From contig JAEUKT010000002.1 of assembly GCA_016794125.1 (NCBI GenBank), forward strand, positions 1,551,769-1,615,768: DNA of 64,000 bases. Reading direction: 5' to 3'. Positions within the stretch are counted from its first letter, which is position 1; every line of letters begins with the position of its first letter. Below, piece after piece: positions 24,329 to 34,939 of this stretch. The position numbers and the translations under genes were made by a program. A model generated the notes under the pieces. It was not told the DNA's origin. It was given only the letters and a program-made list of their open reading frames with translations, and made no database searches. The DNA comes from Alphaproteobacteria bacterium (GTDB taxonomy: Bacteria; Pseudomonadota; Alphaproteobacteria; Micavibrionales; UBA2020).

Positions 24329-25477
24329 TCAGGTTGAGGTTGTGGATTCCGCGGCGAGGCGACGGCTGAATGCTTCTTCGGCCATTTTTGTCGTGCGGAT
24401 GTTGTACCGGTCGATGATTTCCTGGCATGACCGGAACTTGTGGCCCGTGATCGAGGCGATCTGCGGGATCTCGCAGCCGGCTTCCGCCAGCCTTGTCACC
24501 GCCGTATGGCGGAGATTTTTAAATATCAGCGTCTTCAACTCGGGCAGCTGCTCGCCGTGCAGCTCGGCCGCCTTGTCGCGAATGCAGCGCACCAGGTACG
24601 CGAACCAGTTTTCGCTGTAGGGCTGGCCGTTCTCGGTCGGCAGCAGATAGATCGATTTGATCTTCATGCGGTCGTTGCGCTGCAGCTGCAGCTCGATGCG
24701 CGCCTTCAGCTGCGGCACCTTATCGACCGGCAGAACAACCTCGGCGCCGGTCTTGTTCTGCTTCAGGCGGAAGGCGCCTGCGGAATAATTCGGGCGGCCG
24801 AGCGCGATCACGTCGCCCTTGCGCTGCCCGATCCATTCGTTCAGCAGGACGGCCGTCCCGATCGCGAAATGCCCCATCGCATCGGCTGTCGCGACAAACG
24901 CCTCGACGGCCGCCGGCGACCACAGCTGCCCCTTTTCCGTGAAGGTGGACATGCCCGGCTTCGAGGCGGCATTCGTCGAGATCTTGCCTTCGCGCACACC
25001 ATGCTCGAGCACGATGCGCAGCACGCGGATGATCGCCGACGCCTTCGCCGGCGTGACGCCCTTCATCGAGCTGTAAATTTTCTGCACCATCGGCTTCGTC
25101 ACCGCGGCATAAGGGAAATCGCCCATCGTGCGGATCAGGTAACGGAAGGCATATTCGTAGCTGTCGCGCGTCTTCTGTTTCTTCTCGGTGAAACGCCAGC
25201 TTTTTTTATAATCGCCGATCAGCCATTCCAGGCTGCCGTCCTTTGCCGATTGCGGCTTATCGCGCAGGCCGCCATACCAGCGATCGAGGTCTTCGTTATA
25301 TCGTTGCGCCTCGGCGATCGCGGCCGCGCGGACCTCGTCGGCTGTGCCGGCAGCGTGTTCCGCCAGGCGCATGATTTTCCAGCCGGCTTTCACCAGCTCC
25401 GGCGATGGCTGCCAGTAATAGCGGGTCTTGCCGTTCAGGGCGTGGCGTGTTGTGAGGTAGCGGATGCGGATATCCAT
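24329..25477 (-). CDS. int: Tyrosine recombinase (prophage integrase)
   Basis: 382 residues from ATG 25477 (AAGGA upstream). It has an N-terminal core-binding region (about 85-170) and a C-terminal catalytic domain. Arg219 (WIGQRKGD), a Lys in the LKQNKTG hairpin (239 or 242), Arg323-His324 (NLRHTAVTRL), His346 (GHKF) and nucleophile Tyr358 (DRYNI) are visible. The first His of the usual HxLRH box is Lys320. It is expected to recombine the 48-bp tRNA-Lys site. Unusually, it lies 4.2 kb from attL with cargo genes between. The frame upstream to 25726 is not needed. Confidence 0.93.
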   Translation of the reverse strand: MDIRIRYLTTRHALNGKTRYYWQPSPELVKAGWKIMRLAEHAAGTADEVRAAAIAEAQRYNEDLDRWYGGLRDKPQSAKDGSLEWLIGDYKKSWRFTEKKQKTRDSYEYAFRYLIRTMGDFPYAAVTKPMVQKIYSSMKGVTPAKASAIIRVLRIVLEHGVREGKISTNAASKPGMSTFTEKGQLWSPAAVEAFVATADAMGHFAIGTAVLLNEWIGQRKGDVIALGRPNYSAGAFRLKQNKTGAEVVLPVDKVPQLKARIELQLQRNDRMKIKSIYLLPTENGQPYSENWFAYLVRCIRDKAAELHGEQLPELKTLIFKNLRHTAVTRLAEAGCEIPQIASITGHKFRSCQEIIDRYNIRTTKMAEEAFSRRLAAESTTST

Positions 25478-25497
25478 TGCTTTTCCTTTCGGGTCGG

Positions 25498-25800
25498 TTA
25501 AACCGGCCGCCCGATCTCCTCGAAATGCGCGCTGAAAATGAAACTCTCGTCGCGCTGCCGGTATCCGACAACGCTGCCGCAGGGGATCCCGCGATCGCTG
25601 GCGCCTTCGATAAAGGCGGTCACAATCGCAAGCAGCCCGCGCTTGCGGCAGCTCTCGAGCTGGCGGCGCACGCTGTTGGCGTCCGTCGTGCTCTTGAACA
25701 TGATCGTTTCGCTCTCCGTCGCCCATTTGATCTGGTAGATCGTGGCCGTCTGATTAGGCAACGGCCGCGCGCGGGGGAATTCAACGGCAATAACGGTCAT
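25498..25800 (-). CDS. Hypothetical phage protein, 100 aa
   Basis: A small alpha/beta protein, TATIYQIKWATESETIMFKSTTDANSVRRQLESCRKRGLLAIVTAFIEGASDRGIPCGSVVGYRQRDESFIFS. It lies upstream of the integrase in the leftward early operon. Family not recognised. Confidence 0.6.
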   Translation of the reverse strand: MTVIAVEFPRARPLPNQTATIYQIKWATESETIMFKSTTDANSVRRQLESCRKRGLLAIVTAFIEGASDRGIPCGSVVGYRQRDESFIFSAHFEEIGRPV

Positions 25801-28425: not shown

Positions 28426-28803
28426 ATGACCAAAAAGGACAAAGAGTTACCTGTTCCACGTGAAGCAATCGGCGACCGCTGGTCGGCGCTGCTGCGTTCA
28501 CGCTACCCCGAAAGAAATGCCGCGAAGAGCATTGCCCGGGATTTTGACTGCGAGACGCGCACAGCGAAGGCGTGGCTTGCAGGGCAGCGCCCGCAGCTTG
28601 ACGGCTTCAGCCGTGCTGCGCAGCTGTTTGGAATATCGGCCGTGATAGGGGTGTTGTGGCCAGATAGTGAAGAACATCATCGAAGTAAACTGCACGACGA
28701 CCTGCAAGAGCTGCGTTCGCGGCTCGACAGGATGTCGCGCGAGCTGGGGGGCTCGCCAAATGATCCGAACGATCCTCATAAGAACGGCAAAGATCGCGGC
28801 TAG
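28426..28803 (+). CDS. Phage DNA-binding protein, 125 aa
   Basis: The start at 28426 has GGGAGAAG upstream. In the same frame an ATG at 28333 overlaps the previous stop and would give 156 residues. AAKSIARDFDCETRTAKAWLAGQRPQLDGFSRAAQLFGISAVIGVLWP is a helix-turn-helix of the kind seen in phage CII-type or replication regulators. A coiled-coil-like helix (HDDLQELRSRLDRMSREL) follows. Confidence 0.6.
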   Translation: MTKKDKELPVPREAIGDRWSALLRSRYPERNAAKSIARDFDCETRTAKAWLAGQRPQLDGFSRAAQLFGISAVIGVLWPDSEEHHRSKLHDDLQELRSRLDRMSRELGGSPNDPNDPHKNGKDRG

Positions 28804-29210: not shown

Positions 29211-29320
29211 AAAAACTGATCGCCGGCAAATACCAGCCCGCCGCTAAACCCAAGGCAGCGAAAAAGCCGGCCGCAAAAAAGCCGGCCAAACCTAAACCCG
29301 AACCCGACGCAGGAAAGTGA
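29207..29320 (+). CDS. Lys/Pro/Ala-rich microprotein, 37 aa
   Basis: MKKLIAGKYQPAAKPKAAKKPAAKKPAKPKPEPDAGK. AGGAG lies 6 bp before the ATG. The start overlaps the zinc-ribbon stop and the end overlaps the primase start, so it is coupled on both sides. It is polycationic, like the chromosomal microprotein at 15966. Probably nucleic-acid binding (inference). Confidence 0.6.
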   Translation: MKKLIAGKYQPAAKPKAAKKPAAKKPAKPKPEPDAGK

Positions 29321-30402
29321 CGCATCTCGTGGAAATTTCCGACCTGGCAGAAATGCTCGCACAGCGCATCGATGCGCTGTGCGTTCATCTGTTGCCCAAC
29401 GGCAAGCGCGAGCGCAACGAATACCTTGTCGGCTCCGTCGCCGGCGAGCCGGGGCGCTCTATGTCGGTGTGCCTGCGCGGCGCGCGGCAGGGGCTTTGGA
29501 AAGATTTTTCCAGCGACGCGGATTCCGGCGACGCGCTCGACCTTGTCGCGGCCGTGCTGTTCCGCAACGACAAGGGCGAAGCGGTGAAATGGTCGCGCAG
29601 CTGGCTCGGCCTCGATACCCTCGACCCCAATCGCCTCGAGCAGCGCCGGCGCGAGGCGAAGGCAGCCGCCGACGAGCGCGACAAAAAAGCACACGCGGAA
29701 ATGATGAAGATCCGCGGCGACGCAAAAAGAATTTGGCACGGCGCGCAGGCGGATATCCTCGCCTCGCCGGTGCATCACTATTTCATGGGCCGTGCGATCG
29801 ACATGCGCCGCCTCGAGCGGATCCCGGGCGCAATTCGTTTCAGCCCTTCGTGCTGGTGCGCGGAAACCAATACGCGCCTGCCGGCGATGGTCTCGCAGAT
29901 CCAGACGCTCGAGGAAGGGCATATCTCGACGCATCGCACCTACCTGCAAAGATTTCCCGACGGCAGCTGGAAGAAGGCGACGCTCGAAGAACCGAAAAAA
30001 ACTCTCAGCTCGTTCCGCGGCGGATTTATCGCGCTGAACCGCGGCGCGTCGGGCAAGCCGATCAAGGAAGCCCCGCCGGGCGACCTGGTGATTATCGCGG
30101 AAGGCATCGAGACCGGGCTTTCGATCGCTGTTGAAATGCCGGAGGCGCGCGTGCTGGCCGGCGTATCGGTGACAAACTTCCAGAACCTTGTGCTGCCGCC
30201 GGCGATCACGCGCGTCACGATCGCGGCCGACAATGATGGCGACAACGAAAAATCTGCGGCTGCCGTCGATCGCGCCGCGCAGCGCTTCGTCGATCAGGGC
30301 CGCGAAGTAAAAATCATTTATCCGCCCAGCGGAAAAGACTTCAACGATTATCTGCAGCTGATGGCGCAAGGCCGCCAGGACGACATGAGGAGAATGGTAT
30401 GA
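29317..30402 (+). CDS. Toprim-domain primase-like protein
   Basis: 361 residues from GTG 29317. The C-terminal Toprim fold is evident: IIAEGIETGLSIA (Glu262) and IAADNDGDN (Asp305, Asp307, Asp309). The N-terminal part (RSMSVCLRGARQGLWKDFSSDADSGDALDLV) resembles the region before the Toprim domain of phage and plasmid primases. It likely makes RNA primers together with the helicase, whose gene overlaps by 4 bp. Confidence 0.82.
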   Translation: MTHLVEISDLAEMLAQRIDALCVHLLPNGKRERNEYLVGSVAGEPGRSMSVCLRGARQGLWKDFSSDADSGDALDLVAAVLFRNDKGEAVKWSRSWLGLDTLDPNRLEQRRREAKAAADERDKKAHAEMMKIRGDAKRIWHGAQADILASPVHHYFMGRAIDMRRLERIPGAIRFSPSCWCAETNTRLPAMVSQIQTLEEGHISTHRTYLQRFPDGSWKKATLEEPKKTLSSFRGGFIALNRGASGKPIKEAPPGDLVIIAEGIETGLSIAVEMPEARVLAGVSVTNFQNLVLPPAITRVTIAADNDGDNEKSAAAVDRAAQRFVDQGREVKIIYPPSGKDFNDYLQLMAQGRQDDMRRMV

Positions 30403-32222
30403 GCGGCAACAGCATTCGCGAGATCGCAGAAAATGCGCAGCCGATCAACCCGGCGCCAGGTGCGGCCGCGCCTATCGTCGTCGCGAAAGACGACAAGAAG
30501 CCGAAGAAGAAAGCCGACAAGAAGGTCGAGGCAGAAGGTAAGCAGCCTTTGTCTGCCGTGCTGCCGGATGAATGCCCGGTCGTGCCGCTTGGCGTGAACG
30601 GATCAACGTATTACTACATCGACCCCTGCAAGCAGCTGCAGGAGCTCGAGGCGACGGATCATTCCCGCCTCGGGCTGCTCTCGCTGTTCAACAAGGAATC
30701 CCAGTATCTCTGGAACACCTGGCCGCGCGTAAACGAAAATGGCGCCGTGACCGGCTGGCGGCCGGAAATCGCCGCGGAAGCTTTGATCGGTGCCTGCGGC
30801 CGCCTGGGGCTCATCGACGTGAAGGACCGCGTGCGCGGCCCCGGCGGATGGGTGGATGACGACGGAAATCTGGTGTTTCATTGCGGCGATAAAATTTTTC
30901 AAGTTGGCGCCGAAGGCGCCTCCGCATTTGAGCCCGGCCGCATCGGCCGCCATATCTATCACGCAGCACCGCCAACACCACGCCCCGCGCCCGGCCCCGA
31001 GAGAGCCAGCAGTAAACCCGCCGCGGAATTTTACGAGCTCCTCGCCGGCTGGAAATGGCGGCAGCCGGACCGCGATCCGCATCTGCTCCTCGGCTGGATC
31101 GCGGCCGCCATGTTCGGCGGCGCGCTGAAATGGCGACCGATCATCTGGATCACCGGCGACAAGGCGACCGGCAAATCGACTTTGCATGAAGCGATCAACG
31201 GCATCCTTGGCAACGGCGGCAGCATCCATGCGACGGATCCCACCGCGGCCGGCCTTTGGCAGACCGTGAAGCGCGCATCTCTCCCGATCACGCTCGACGA
31301 GCTCGAGGCAGAGAGCGACAACCGCAAGGCGCACAACATCATCAAGCTGGCGCGTCACGCCGCGAGCGGCGGCCAGACGTTGCGCGGCGGCAGCGACCAC
31401 AAGAGCGCGACGTTTACGGCGCGCAACTGTTTTTTATTTTCTTCCATCCTCATTCCTCCGCTTCTCGGCCAGGATGTGAGCCGCATGGCCATCCTCGAGC
31501 TCGACCGCCTCGACGCCACCTCCAAAGCTCCGCACCTTGAACCGAAAAAACTGGCAGAGATCGGCGCGGTTTTCAGAAAACGTCTTATCGACCAATGGCC
31601 GCGCTATGCGGAAACGCTGGCGGCCTATCGCGAGACGCTGCAGAGCGTTGGACATGGCGGCCGCTCGAGCGACCAGTTCGGCACGCTCCTCGCCTGCGCG
31701 GACCTTCTCCTTTACGATGCCGCGCCGGATAGCGATACCCTCAAGGGTTGGGGGGATAAACTGCGCTGGCTTGGCCTCAGCGAAGCGGAGAACGATCTCA
31801 GCGACAGCGAGCGCTGCGTGTCGCATATGCTCTCCTCGATCTGCCCTGTGTACAAGGACGGCAAGCAGCGGACCATCGGCAGCTGGATAGAGCAGGCCGC
31901 AGACCGATTTACCTCGGCCGACCTCAGCGAAGCCGACAAGGTGCTGGGCGCAATGGGGCTGCGCGTGGAGCGTGGCCGGCTGCCGACGGATCCGAAGCAC
32001 ATCCTCGTCGCCAACATGCACCAGGGGCTCGCTGCCGTGTTCCGCGACACCATCTGGGCCTCAGCGCCCGGCACGAGTGGCGTTTGGGTACAGTCCATGC
32101 GGCGCATCCAAGGCGCGACAGCTTCAAAATCGAGCACCAATTTCGGCGGCGCACCCTCGCGCTATACCCGCATTTTGCTCGATCACGTTTTACCCGAAGA
32201 GCAGAAGGTGAGCGCATCATGA
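30399..32222 (+). CDS. Phage replicative helicase-like ATPase
   Basis: 607 residues. After a Lys-rich linker (26-48), a P-loop domain carries Walker A GDKATGKST (253-261) and Walker B ITLDELE (297-303). This resembles the D5/DUF927-type helicases that work with Toprim primases. ATG overlaps the primase stop (ATGA). It is followed directly by the iteron block, so it may act at or load onto that site. Confidence 0.8.
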   Translation: MSGNSIREIAENAQPINPAPGAAAPIVVAKDDKKPKKKADKKVEAEGKQPLSAVLPDECPVVPLGVNGSTYYYIDPCKQLQELEATDHSRLGLLSLFNKESQYLWNTWPRVNENGAVTGWRPEIAAEALIGACGRLGLIDVKDRVRGPGGWVDDDGNLVFHCGDKIFQVGAEGASAFEPGRIGRHIYHAAPPTPRPAPGPERASSKPAAEFYELLAGWKWRQPDRDPHLLLGWIAAAMFGGALKWRPIIWITGDKATGKSTLHEAINGILGNGGSIHATDPTAAGLWQTVKRASLPITLDELEAESDNRKAHNIIKLARHAASGGQTLRGGSDHKSATFTARNCFLFSSILIPPLLGQDVSRMAILELDRLDATSKAPHLEPKKLAEIGAVFRKRLIDQWPRYAETLAAYRETLQSVGHGGRSSDQFGTLLACADLLLYDAAPDSDTLKGWGDKLRWLGLSEAENDLSDSERCVSHMLSSICPVYKDGKQRTIGSWIEQAADRFTSADLSEADKVLGAMGLRVERGRLPTDPKHILVANMHQGLAAVFRDTIWASAPGTSGVWVQSMRRIQGATASKSSTNFGGAPSRYTRILLDHVLPEEQKVSAS

Positions 32223-32301: not shown

Positions 32302-32551
32302 TGCAACGGTGCAACGTCTCTGCAACGGTGGCGCGTTGCATCTGATGGGATTGAAGGGGCTGGGGAATTTACCGACTGCAACGGTGCAACGGTAATTTCC
32401 CCCTGCATATGTGCGAGCGTGCGAGCGCGTGCACATGCGCGGTAACAGCGTTGTATGCGTTGCACCGTTGCACCTTTCTTTATTTCTCTTTGAGTACAGA
32501 GAGATAGAGAAAGGAATAGCTGCAACGGTGCTGCAACGGTGGTGCAACGGT
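32302..32551. repeat. Iteron array: candidate replication origin
   Basis: The 362-bp gap 32223-32584 holds eight exact TGCAACGGT nonamers: 32302, 32321, 32377, 32385, 32464 (inverted), 32521, 32532 and 32543, plus near-copies at 32310 and 32332. The last three are spaced exactly 11 bp apart, one helical turn. An AT-rich stretch (about 32473-32518) with TTTCTCT/AGAGAAA arms separates the two groups. It is located between the helicase and small terminase genes, so an origin or a packaging site are the two readings. Confidence 0.65.
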
Positions 32552-32584
32552 TCGATTGAATGAATAAAATATTGGGGTTTTATT

Positions 32585-33190
32585 GTGAGTTCTGAGACAG
32601 ATAGCAGCAAAACAGGGCTTAAAACCGTTATTTCGGAGCTTCACGATCCAGCTGCGCCGCTGCCGGGTGAACCGAATGCCGAGCAGCTCGAGCTGTTGCC
32701 TCTCTCGCGACGCCTCGCGGAAAAGAACCTTTCCAGCTCGCGGGGGGCGGGACGGCCGCCGGGCGCGAAGAACAAGAACACCGAAGCATGGCGCGATTAC
32801 ATGCTCGCGCGCTATCCCTCGCCGCTGGATGCGCTGGCGCAAACCTACATCGTGCCGATCGAGGAGCTGTGCAAGATCCTCAGCTGCTCGCGCCTGGAGG
32901 CGTTCAAGCTGCAGATGGCGGCAGCGAAGGAGCTCGCGCCGTATCTCCACCAGAAACAGCCGCTCGCCATCGACACCGGCGACAAGGGGCTGATCCAGAT
33001 GTTCATCGGATCCGTTCAGGCCGCGACGCAAGCGAGCGACGAGGACGCGCAAGATGCGGTTTACGAGGTGCTCGATGAACCTCAACAAAATCAATTGGTT
33101 AGCGGCGAAGATAATGCAACCTCTAACGCGCCGACCTCTAACGCGCAAGGCGAAGCTGCTGACATTGCAGGGGAAAACGATGGTCGCTAA
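32585..33190 (+). CDS. Terminase small subunit-like protein
   Basis: 201 residues from GTG 32585. GRPPGAKNKNTEAWRDYMLARYPSPLDALAQTYIVPIEELCKILSCSRLEAFKLQMAAAKELAPYLHQKQP is the DNA-binding layout common in podovirus small terminases. The C-terminal region is acidic and disordered, with a TSNAPTSNA repeat. It is followed by the large subunit. Confidence 0.7.
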   Translation: MSSETDSSKTGLKTVISELHDPAAPLPGEPNAEQLELLPLSRRLAEKNLSSSRGAGRPPGAKNKNTEAWRDYMLARYPSPLDALAQTYIVPIEELCKILSCSRLEAFKLQMAAAKELAPYLHQKQPLAIDTGDKGLIQMFIGSVQAATQASDEDAQDAVYEVLDEPQQNQLVSGEDNATSNAPTSNAQGEAADIAGENDGR

Positions 33191-33503
33191 CTCTAATCAG
33201 GAATTAGACGGACAGCACTCGGCAGTAGTCGCTTGGCATCAGGCAATGATCGCCATCGCGCACGAGACCACCCCCGGGGCCTTCGTCCAGGCGCAGCCCG
33301 CGCGCGCCGCAGGGGGGGTGCCCCCCGCGCCCGCCACCATCCCCGCGGGGGTGGCTTTGTCTTCACAGCCGAAAAAAAAGACCGCGCCTCACCCTGCTGG
33401 AAAAAAGCCGGCCGAAAATATTTGCGGCGGCGATGTGGGGCAGGGCGCGGGTCAGGAGGCGGCGGAAAATTCGGGCGTCGGGATTGGGGGCAGGGGATGC
33501 TGA
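33180..33503 (+). CDS. Hypothetical coupled protein between terS and terL
   Basis: 107 residues, rich in Pro, Ala, Gly and Gln and largely disordered. AGGGG lies 7 bp before the ATG, which overlaps the terS stop region. Its TGA overlaps the terL ATG (TGATG), a coupling arrangement that favours translation. The composition gives no family; it could be a non-conserved spacer frame. Confidence 0.45.
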   Translation: MVANSNQELDGQHSAVVAWHQAMIAIAHETTPGAFVQAQPARAAGGVPPAPATIPAGVALSSQPKKKTAPHPAGKKPAENICGGDVGQGAGQEAAENSGVGIGGRGC

Positions 33504-34939
33504 TGAAGTGGATTCCGCCCGGGCCAGTAGCGCAGGCCTTCGTCGATGACCGGAATTTTTTCTCCGCGATCATGGGGCCGATGGGTTCCGCGAAAACCTC
33601 GAGCTGCATCCAGAAGCTCGTGAAAATTTCCTGCGAACAAAAACCGTCGCTGATCACTGGCGAGCGCGAAGTGAAATTCGGCGTCATCCGCGACACGCTC
33701 GCGAACATGAAGCGCACGACGTACAAGTCGATCAAGCAATGGTTTCCAAAGTCCGGCGCGTGGGGCGGCGGGGGATCGTCCGAGGAGCCGCCGTTTTTCA
33801 AAGCGGGATTCCAGCTGCAGGACGGAACGATCGCGCGCCTGCATCTCGATTTCGTGGGGCTCGACGAGCACAACATCGAGGATATCGCGAAGGGCTGGGA
33901 ACTCACCGGCTATTGGCTGAACGAGGCGGACCTTCTGTCGAAGGATATTAAAACCTATGTCGATGCGCGCGTCGGCCGTTTCCCAGGCGCGCTGCATGGC
34001 GGCTGCAGCTGGTACGGCGGGATCGCGGATTACAACGCGCCGGATACCGAAAATTATCTCTACGAAATGCTCGAGGAGCAAAAGCCCGAAGGCCATAAAC
34101 TTTTCAAACAGCCGTCGGGATTTTCGCCGAATGCCGAAAACATGAAGAACCTGCCGGAGGGGTACTATACCCGCATGGCGATCGGCAAAGAAAAATGGTG
34201 GGTCCGCCGCAACATCGAAAACAATTACGGCTTTTCGCGCGAGGGCGAGCCGGTGTTCGAGCAGTATAACGATGAATTCCATTGCGGCGGCCGCACGATC
34301 GAGGCCGTGCGCGGAATCCAGATCGTCTGCTATGCCGACGCGGCGCTGCGGCCGGCGATGGTATTCACGCAGACGATGGCGAACGGCCAGAAAAGAATTC
34401 TCAGCGAAATTTACATCAACGGCGGCGCGAAGCAGCTGGGCGAGGCCGCGCTCGAGCATCTCGGAAAATTCTATCCGGGCTTGAGCTTCCGCGGCGGCAC
34501 GGTGGATCCTGCAGCTGACAAGCGATCGGAGAACGACAGCGAAGCGGAAAACTACATCGAGACGCTTAACCGTGCCATGAACCTCACAGGTGCCGATCGC
34601 TTCCGGCCGGCGCCGACAAACGATCCGACGAAACGGCAGGATGCAGTCAAGCATTACCTGACGACGATGGTGGGCAGCGCGGAGCCGGCGCTCCTGGTCA
34701 GCGCGCGCGCGATTGTTGCGCGCAAAGGCTTTAACTCGACATACCGCTTCAAAAAACGCGCGAACGGGCAGACCGAAGACAAGCCCGAAAAACTGCACCC
34801 CGTTTCCGACGTGCATGATGCGATCCAGTATTTCGCGCTCGATGAGGGCGGATATGAAATCGTTAGCGCAACGGAATCCCGCCAGGCGCGCCGCGCCGGC
34901 AACCATATGCGGCAGGCTAAAATGGCGGTGACGGTATGA
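33503..34939 (+). CDS. terL: Terminase large subunit
   Basis: 478 residues from ATG 33503 (AGGGG 7 bp upstream). An ATPase domain with Walker A GPMGSAKT (25-32), of the T7/T3-like portal-linked class, precedes a nuclease half containing VCYADAALRPAMVF and FRGGTVDPAAD. It packages DNA into the prohead through the portal encoded downstream. The long frame upstream to 33233 is out of the coding pattern and not used. Confidence 0.85.
   Translation: MKWIPPGPVAQAFVDDRNFFSAIMGPMGSAKTSSCIQKLVKISCEQKPSLITGEREVKFGVIRDTLANMKRTTYKSIKQWFPKSGAWGGGGSSEEPPFFKAGFQLQDGTIARLHLDFVGLDEHNIEDIAKGWELTGYWLNEADLLSKDIKTYVDARVGRFPGALHGGCSWYGGIADYNAPDTENYLYEMLEEQKPEGHKLFKQPSGFSPNAENMKNLPEGYYTRMAIGKEKWWVRRNIENNYGFSREGEPVFEQYNDEFHCGGRTIEAVRGIQIVCYADAALRPAMVFTQTMANGQKRILSEIYINGGAKQLGEAALEHLGKFYPGLSFRGGTVDPAADKRSENDSEAENYIETLNRAMNLTGADRFRPAPTNDPTKRQDAVKHYLTTMVGSAEPALLVSARAIVARKGFNSTYRFKKRANGQTEDKPEKLHPVSDVHDAIQYFALDEGGYEIVSATESRQARRAGNHMRQAKMAVTV

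Follow-up and report, generated by a model that had tools for sequence, protein, structure and literature searches.

Classical iteron plasmids and the O/ori system of lambda carry phased direct repeats together with an AT-rich stretch. The initiator helicases of SaPI and SCCmec elements have their origin downstream of the helicase gene and read it through a C-terminal domain (CTD) (PMC7581432). In the Vibrio PLE, whose RepA/ori has been described along with the origin-directed nuclease Odn, the part of the initiator that binds DNA covaries with the origin, the remainder of the protein being conserved, and replication modules are swapped (PMC8263062); the PLE origin consists of three semi-palindromic iterons of ~30 bp (PMC8263062), and helicase activity is not predicted for its RepA_N initiator (PMC7145576). 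Here we consider an iteron block in a prophage of an alphaproteobacterial genome, contained in a 64 kb stretch of DNA (the window) and located between a Toprim primase-helicase operon and a pair of small- and large-terminase-like genes (terS and terL). Very probably this block is the replication origin of the prophage, read by the helicase encoded directly upstream. The earlier note had recognised the layout of an iteron-controlled origin, a reading that now draws support from the same layout in tens of relatives, from helicase-linked arrays on small plasmids and from co-variation of the repeat word with the helicase CTD.

The array begins 80 bp past the helicase stop, as a short iteron array directly downstream of its gene, and the block is non-coding, with only spurious-looking frames crossing the interval between that stop (32222) and the terS start (32585). 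The exact nonamer TGCAACGGT occurs eight times within 250 bp, on the plus strand at 32302, 32321, 32377, 32385, 32521, 32532 and 32543 and on the minus strand at 32464, which agrees with the count and positions of the earlier note, as does the phasing of the last three copies at exactly 11 bp. Three more TGCAACG sites and one near copy also form part of the array. In total, 11 of the 18 TGCAACG sites of the window fall in the block (8 plus, 3 minus), and the genome-wide count that had been proposed as a check gives 24 nonamers in 3.16 Mb, namely 8 clustered in the block, one elsewhere in the window (40907) and 15 in the rest, all those outside the block being scattered single copies. None of 2000 first-order shuffles of the 250 bp yielded a 9-mer with eight copies, the maximum being six. 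The AT-rich segment reported between repeat groups is also real; it lies between the last two groups and contains 67% AT (p ~0.009 against random 46-mers drawn from the window), and the only alternating purine-pyrimidine run of at least 16 nt in the window, 17 nt long, falls between the two middle groups. As for the suggested inflection in GC skew, a shallow local minimum of the cumulative skew does coincide with the block, but the signal is weak and adds only slightly to the case for an origin. No Rfam family was found in the region. The block resembles classical iteron plasmids and lambda in its phased direct repeats and AT-rich stretch, and differs from them in that no Rep_3- or O-like protein, such as the adjacent Rep of a Rep_3-type origin, was recognised among the neighbouring genes scanned.

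The order of elements in the window (group A, group B, core, inverted group C, AT-rich stretch, group D) follows the plan found in the relatives. A helicase search of 193 related genomes gave three relatives (L022-L024), 53-65% identical, which carry the same word as the window directly after the helicase gene; single-protein helicase searches of viral and genome contigs gave no matches. A first alignment was too diverse, and the search with alignment A2 returned 8 genome loci and 80 viral loci, 88 in total. A significant 7-mer array lies within 700 bp after the helicase stop in 57 of these 88, and the word changes among them (TGCAACG, CACAACG, TGTCCCG, TGAAACG, CCTAACA, CTTACGC, GAGACGC and others). 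The layout is kept: neighbouring sites on one strand are mostly spaced by 8-9 or 11-12 bp, and 44 of 63 loci have two pairs facing each other over a gap with a median of 57 bp, with 8 bp spacing in the pairs and 11-12 bp in the outer groups. The gap contains an unusually long alternating purine-pyrimidine run in 33 of the 44 (p<0.01).

Several relatives are irregular. A frame change interrupts the helicase gene of L067, and its TGCAACG array is intact. L058 (3410-3714) and L050 also have a TGCAACG array; the helicase-like open reading frame upstream in the L058 contig matches the family marginally (E 2.5e-4), and this array is possibly convergent. In the L126 clade (L126, L131, L136, L139, L140), an extra ~0.6 kb with long open frames separates the array from terS (L126:8440-9028), and no clear gene was found in this stretch.

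Arrays of the same layout also lie directly downstream of a helicase homologue on plasmids of Arsenophonus nasoniae, and this homologue is full-length and aligned through the CTD (hhalign probability 100, E 3e-40). In paPv15, 13 copies of GGTAACA are arranged as four on the minus strand (12 bp apart), two on the plus strand (8 bp), two minus (8 bp), four plus (12 bp) and one minus. Plasmids residing together carry different words, CTAACAA in paPv13 and GGTAACA in paPv15, and GGTTGTA in paNv_CAN17 and ATTACAA in paNv_CAN18.

The protein that reads the word is probably the helicase, through its CTD, as co-variation in two close pairs of phages suggests at the level of sequence. Between L142 and L150 (CCACGACG and CCACTACG, respectively), 44 of 168 CTD positions differ, compared with 10 of 387 earlier positions (Fisher 2.7e-16), while TerS is 96% identical and the terL region 95-100% identical at the DNA level. 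Between L113 and L118 (CGGTACA and CGTAACA), the corresponding figures are 17 of 164 and 15 of 387 (p 0.005). DNA identity in this second pair is 98-100% over most of the N-terminal helicase part, just past the helicase gene and over most of terS/terL, and TerS is again 96% identical although the word has changed. Because the diverged tracts of L113/L118 are split by a stretch that is 98% identical, a single recombination tract is hard to invoke. Among 35 close pairs, not all of them independent, the median ratio of CTD to N-terminal divergence is 1.41 for pairs with different words versus 1.02 for pairs with the same word (p 0.006).

Within the CTD, a hypervariable loop (residues 574-580) lies between RRxxGA and FxGxxxRxTxIPL and changes in both phage families. 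Its sequence is PSSSAV in the CGGGACA elements L108 and L138 and PSTIPI in the CGGTACA element L113, and CACAACG elements have a PLTLAG stretch in common. L174 has the loop of the CGGGACA elements, yet its truncated array shows mixed words. These residues are a possible specificity loop, for which the rule would not be simple.

A number of observations weigh against an origin read by the helicase. TGCAACG is paired with at least two different loop sequences, and L118/L138, L108/L118 and L108/L113 differ in word with no significant excess of CTD change. Over the whole set, similarity between words follows helicase identity only weakly, and its correlation with five proteins, calculated globally or in sliding windows, singled out no binder. 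The divergence ratio of TerS is also raised in pairs with different words (p 0.02-0.04), more weakly than that of the CTD; given this and the moderate size of the CTD effect, the pair statistics alone do not decide the matter. The plasmid arrays come from Gammaproteobacteria and their helicases are distant (~27% identity). Finally, in 15 loci where over 1 kb separates the helicase from terS, the array is beside terS, and in the rearranged phage L101 (1300-8540) the array and terS lie upstream of the primase and helicase, the latter being directly before terL.

This constancy of position is what favours a packaging site, the alternative raised in the earlier note, in which a pac- or cosB-like array would be bound by the small terminase encoded downstream and packaging would start here. 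Of the 79 loci with a terS relative, 67 have a significant array in the 500 bp preceding terS, among them the 15 just mentioned. Moreover, a basic stretch, GRPxGxKNK, occurs in the terS-like protein, and in phage BcepC6B both ends of the GenBank record, which may or may not be physical ends, fall in a GGGACGATAG repeat array that precedes gp01/terS (L153:1-110 and the end of L154). The synteny first suggested TerS as the reader of the word, a candidate later weakened by the plasmids and by the pairs L142/L150 and L113/L118, in which TerS is nearly unchanged despite a concerted change of the word. In pArsFIN16, paNv_CAN18 and paNv_CH14, which share their annotated helicase and protelomerase proteins and represent one plasmid type, 11 copies of ATTACAA follow the helicase and no terS is annotated, in gene tables that are incomplete. 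In three others (paPv15, paPv13 and paNv_CAN17) a distance of over 3 kb separates terS from the array. The terS-bearing plasmids have in common a CTACAAG repeat of 5-6 copies, within a few hundred bp of terS and independent of their own iteron word (L162, L163, L164), which is a candidate packaging signal. In six loci belonging to a single clade, ~0.5-0.8 kb separate the array from terS, whereas the distance from array to helicase is at most ~0.6 kb. We therefore regard packaging as an unlikely main function, and the case warns against taking every repeat next to terS for a packaging site.

Packaging might nevertheless be an additional role, given how many phages have the array next to terS. 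One intergenic region would then serve both as the helicase origin and as a packaging signal, which would account for the array staying beside terS and would fit the CTD co-variation together with the terS synteny. However, if two proteins read the word, TerS would be expected to change along with it, whereas in the two closest pairs this protein is almost the same, and a position at the boundary of early and late genes is a simpler account of the synteny; we consider such a double function slightly less likely still. The least likely of the readings, and a very improbable one, is an operator array for a regulator of the late operon that begins with terS. The array does precede the late genes, but it also occurs on plasmids for which no phage late genes are annotated, and its geometry and the CTD co-variation would be left unexplained. 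The small helix-turn-helix gene at 28432-28803 has relatives in 16 loci only, and this patchy occurrence led us to reject it as a general binder. The terS synteny is the main point left to explain for a helicase-read origin; most simply, the origin would lie at the early/late gene boundary.

The fold of the helicase fits an initiator helicase of the SaPI/SCCmec kind. Its AlphaFold model, built from an alignment of 64 sequences, has a predicted local distance difference test score (pLDDT) of 91 (37 for a model without alignment) and is matched in fold by viral helicases of the D5 type, among them SaPI5 Rep (7ola, 7om0), NrS-1 and poxvirus D5/E5. Foldseek matches to 7ola, 8wwa, 6k9c and 8hwe (E 1e-6 to 1e-8, probability 1.00) point to a D5/SF3-like fold, with low template modelling scores (0.3-0.5). 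The window helicase has no Pfam family. As a difference from SaPI Rep (SaPI5, SaPIbov1) and SCCmec Cch2, D5_N and Primase_Cterm gave no match in the 64 family members, and DUF927 and DUF5906 matched weakly in 6 and in 3 of them, respectively. A PDB profile search returned P-loop matches only, with no significant match to SaPI Rep. The system described here also differs in having a separate Toprim primase and a facing layout with an alternating purine-pyrimidine core, and in belonging to phages and plasmids of Proteobacteria.

In satellite phage P4, crr lies directly downstream of the alpha gene and contains 8-bp type 1 repeats (TGTTCACC) that point in either direction and are in part 9 bp apart, and alpha combines Toprim and D5-type helicase parts, with a C-terminal Pox_D5 domain. 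In contrast to our locus, alpha is a single fused protein and the P4 ori and crr are far apart, and homology to alpha over the helicase and origin-binding domain was not found (hhalign probability 13%, around Walker A only). By analogy, the block would work like SaPI Rep/ori and P4 alpha/crr, while by sequence it is a member of neither family. It is similar to PLE in that the DNA-binding part of the initiator appears to covary with the origin, and dissimilar in the iterons, which in PLE are ~30 bp and semi-palindromic, and in the RepA_N initiator without predicted helicase activity.

The neighbouring helicase is probably the initiator that the earlier note had missed in stating that no obvious iteron-binding initiator is encoded nearby. 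Upon induction, primase and helicase would be made from one operon, as the gene order indicates, and the CTD would bind the 7-9 bp words, leading to loading of the helicase as a double hexamer. The strands could then open at the alternating purine-pyrimidine core, at the AT-rich stretch between groups C and D, or at both, and the Toprim primase would prime replication that is probably bidirectional. Because the word is element-specific and diversifies with the CTD, related replicons that share a cell would neither start replication at each other's origins nor titrate one another, which suggests how related phages and plasmids escape such interference. Whether these elements form a widespread replicon class of phages and plasmids with a fixed origin architecture, built around a core with an alternating purine-pyrimidine run, and 7-bp words that change with the CTD loop, a lock-and-key code setting compatibility groups that are perhaps predictable from sequence, is a question on which we find the balance even. 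In any case, a large phage group whose helicase has no Pfam name gains from this locus a proposed origin and initiator that can be tested, and the natural near-isogenic pairs, with their joint change of initiator domain and DNA word, are good material for studying the protein-DNA recognition code. The features of the locus are listed in Table 1.

Table 1. Features of the proposed origin and its flanking genes (positions in the window)
Feature	Position	Strand	Remarks
Toprim primase gene (DUF7146 + Toprim_3)	29317..30402	+	4 bp overlap with helicase gene
Helicase, proposed initiator, 607 amino acids	30399..32222	+	D5/SF3-like ATPase plus CTD
Helicase CTD, residues ~440-607, proposed iteron reader	31716..32219	+	Diverges with the word in L142/L150 and L113/L118
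Iteron group A	32302..32340		32302+, 32310+ (TGCAACG), 32321+, 32334- (TGCAACG)
Iteron group B	32377..32393	+	Pair 32377 and 32385, 8 bp apart, the commonest spacing among relatives
Core between B and C	32394..32457		Holds the window's longest run of alternating purines and pyrimidines (GCGCGTGCACATGCGCG, 32425-32441)
Iteron group C, inverted	32449..32472	-	Near copy 32449; TGCAACG 32458 and 32466 (nonamer 32464-32472)
AT-rich pyrimidine/purine imperfect inverted repeat (I3) between C and D	32475..32520		Candidate unwinding element
Iteron group D	32521..32551	+	Three nonamers, 11 bp spacing
Small-terminase-like gene (terS position)	32585..33190	+	PHROG 15261; precedes terL-like gene

The prophage has an integrase gene at 24329-25726. 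The primase matches Pfam PF13362 (5.9e-21) and PF23639 (5.5e-21) and PHROG 510 (DNA primase), and most related loci have a homologue of it ahead of the helicase gene; the helicase itself matches PHROG 21086 (8e-73) and 35358 (DNA primase). No Pfam family was found for the terS-like protein, homologues of which precede terL in most related loci, and a head-tail connector gene follows the terS/terL-like pair. The terL-like protein (33413-34939) has no Pfam or PHROG match, yet is clearly related to BcepC6B TerL (35.9% identity over 88%). Immediately before the terS start, the leader GAATAAAATATTGGGGTTTTATT (32557-32583) forms an AT-rich inverted repeat with GGGG in its loop; it is conserved, for example in L022 and L062, and could be a control element of terS translation.
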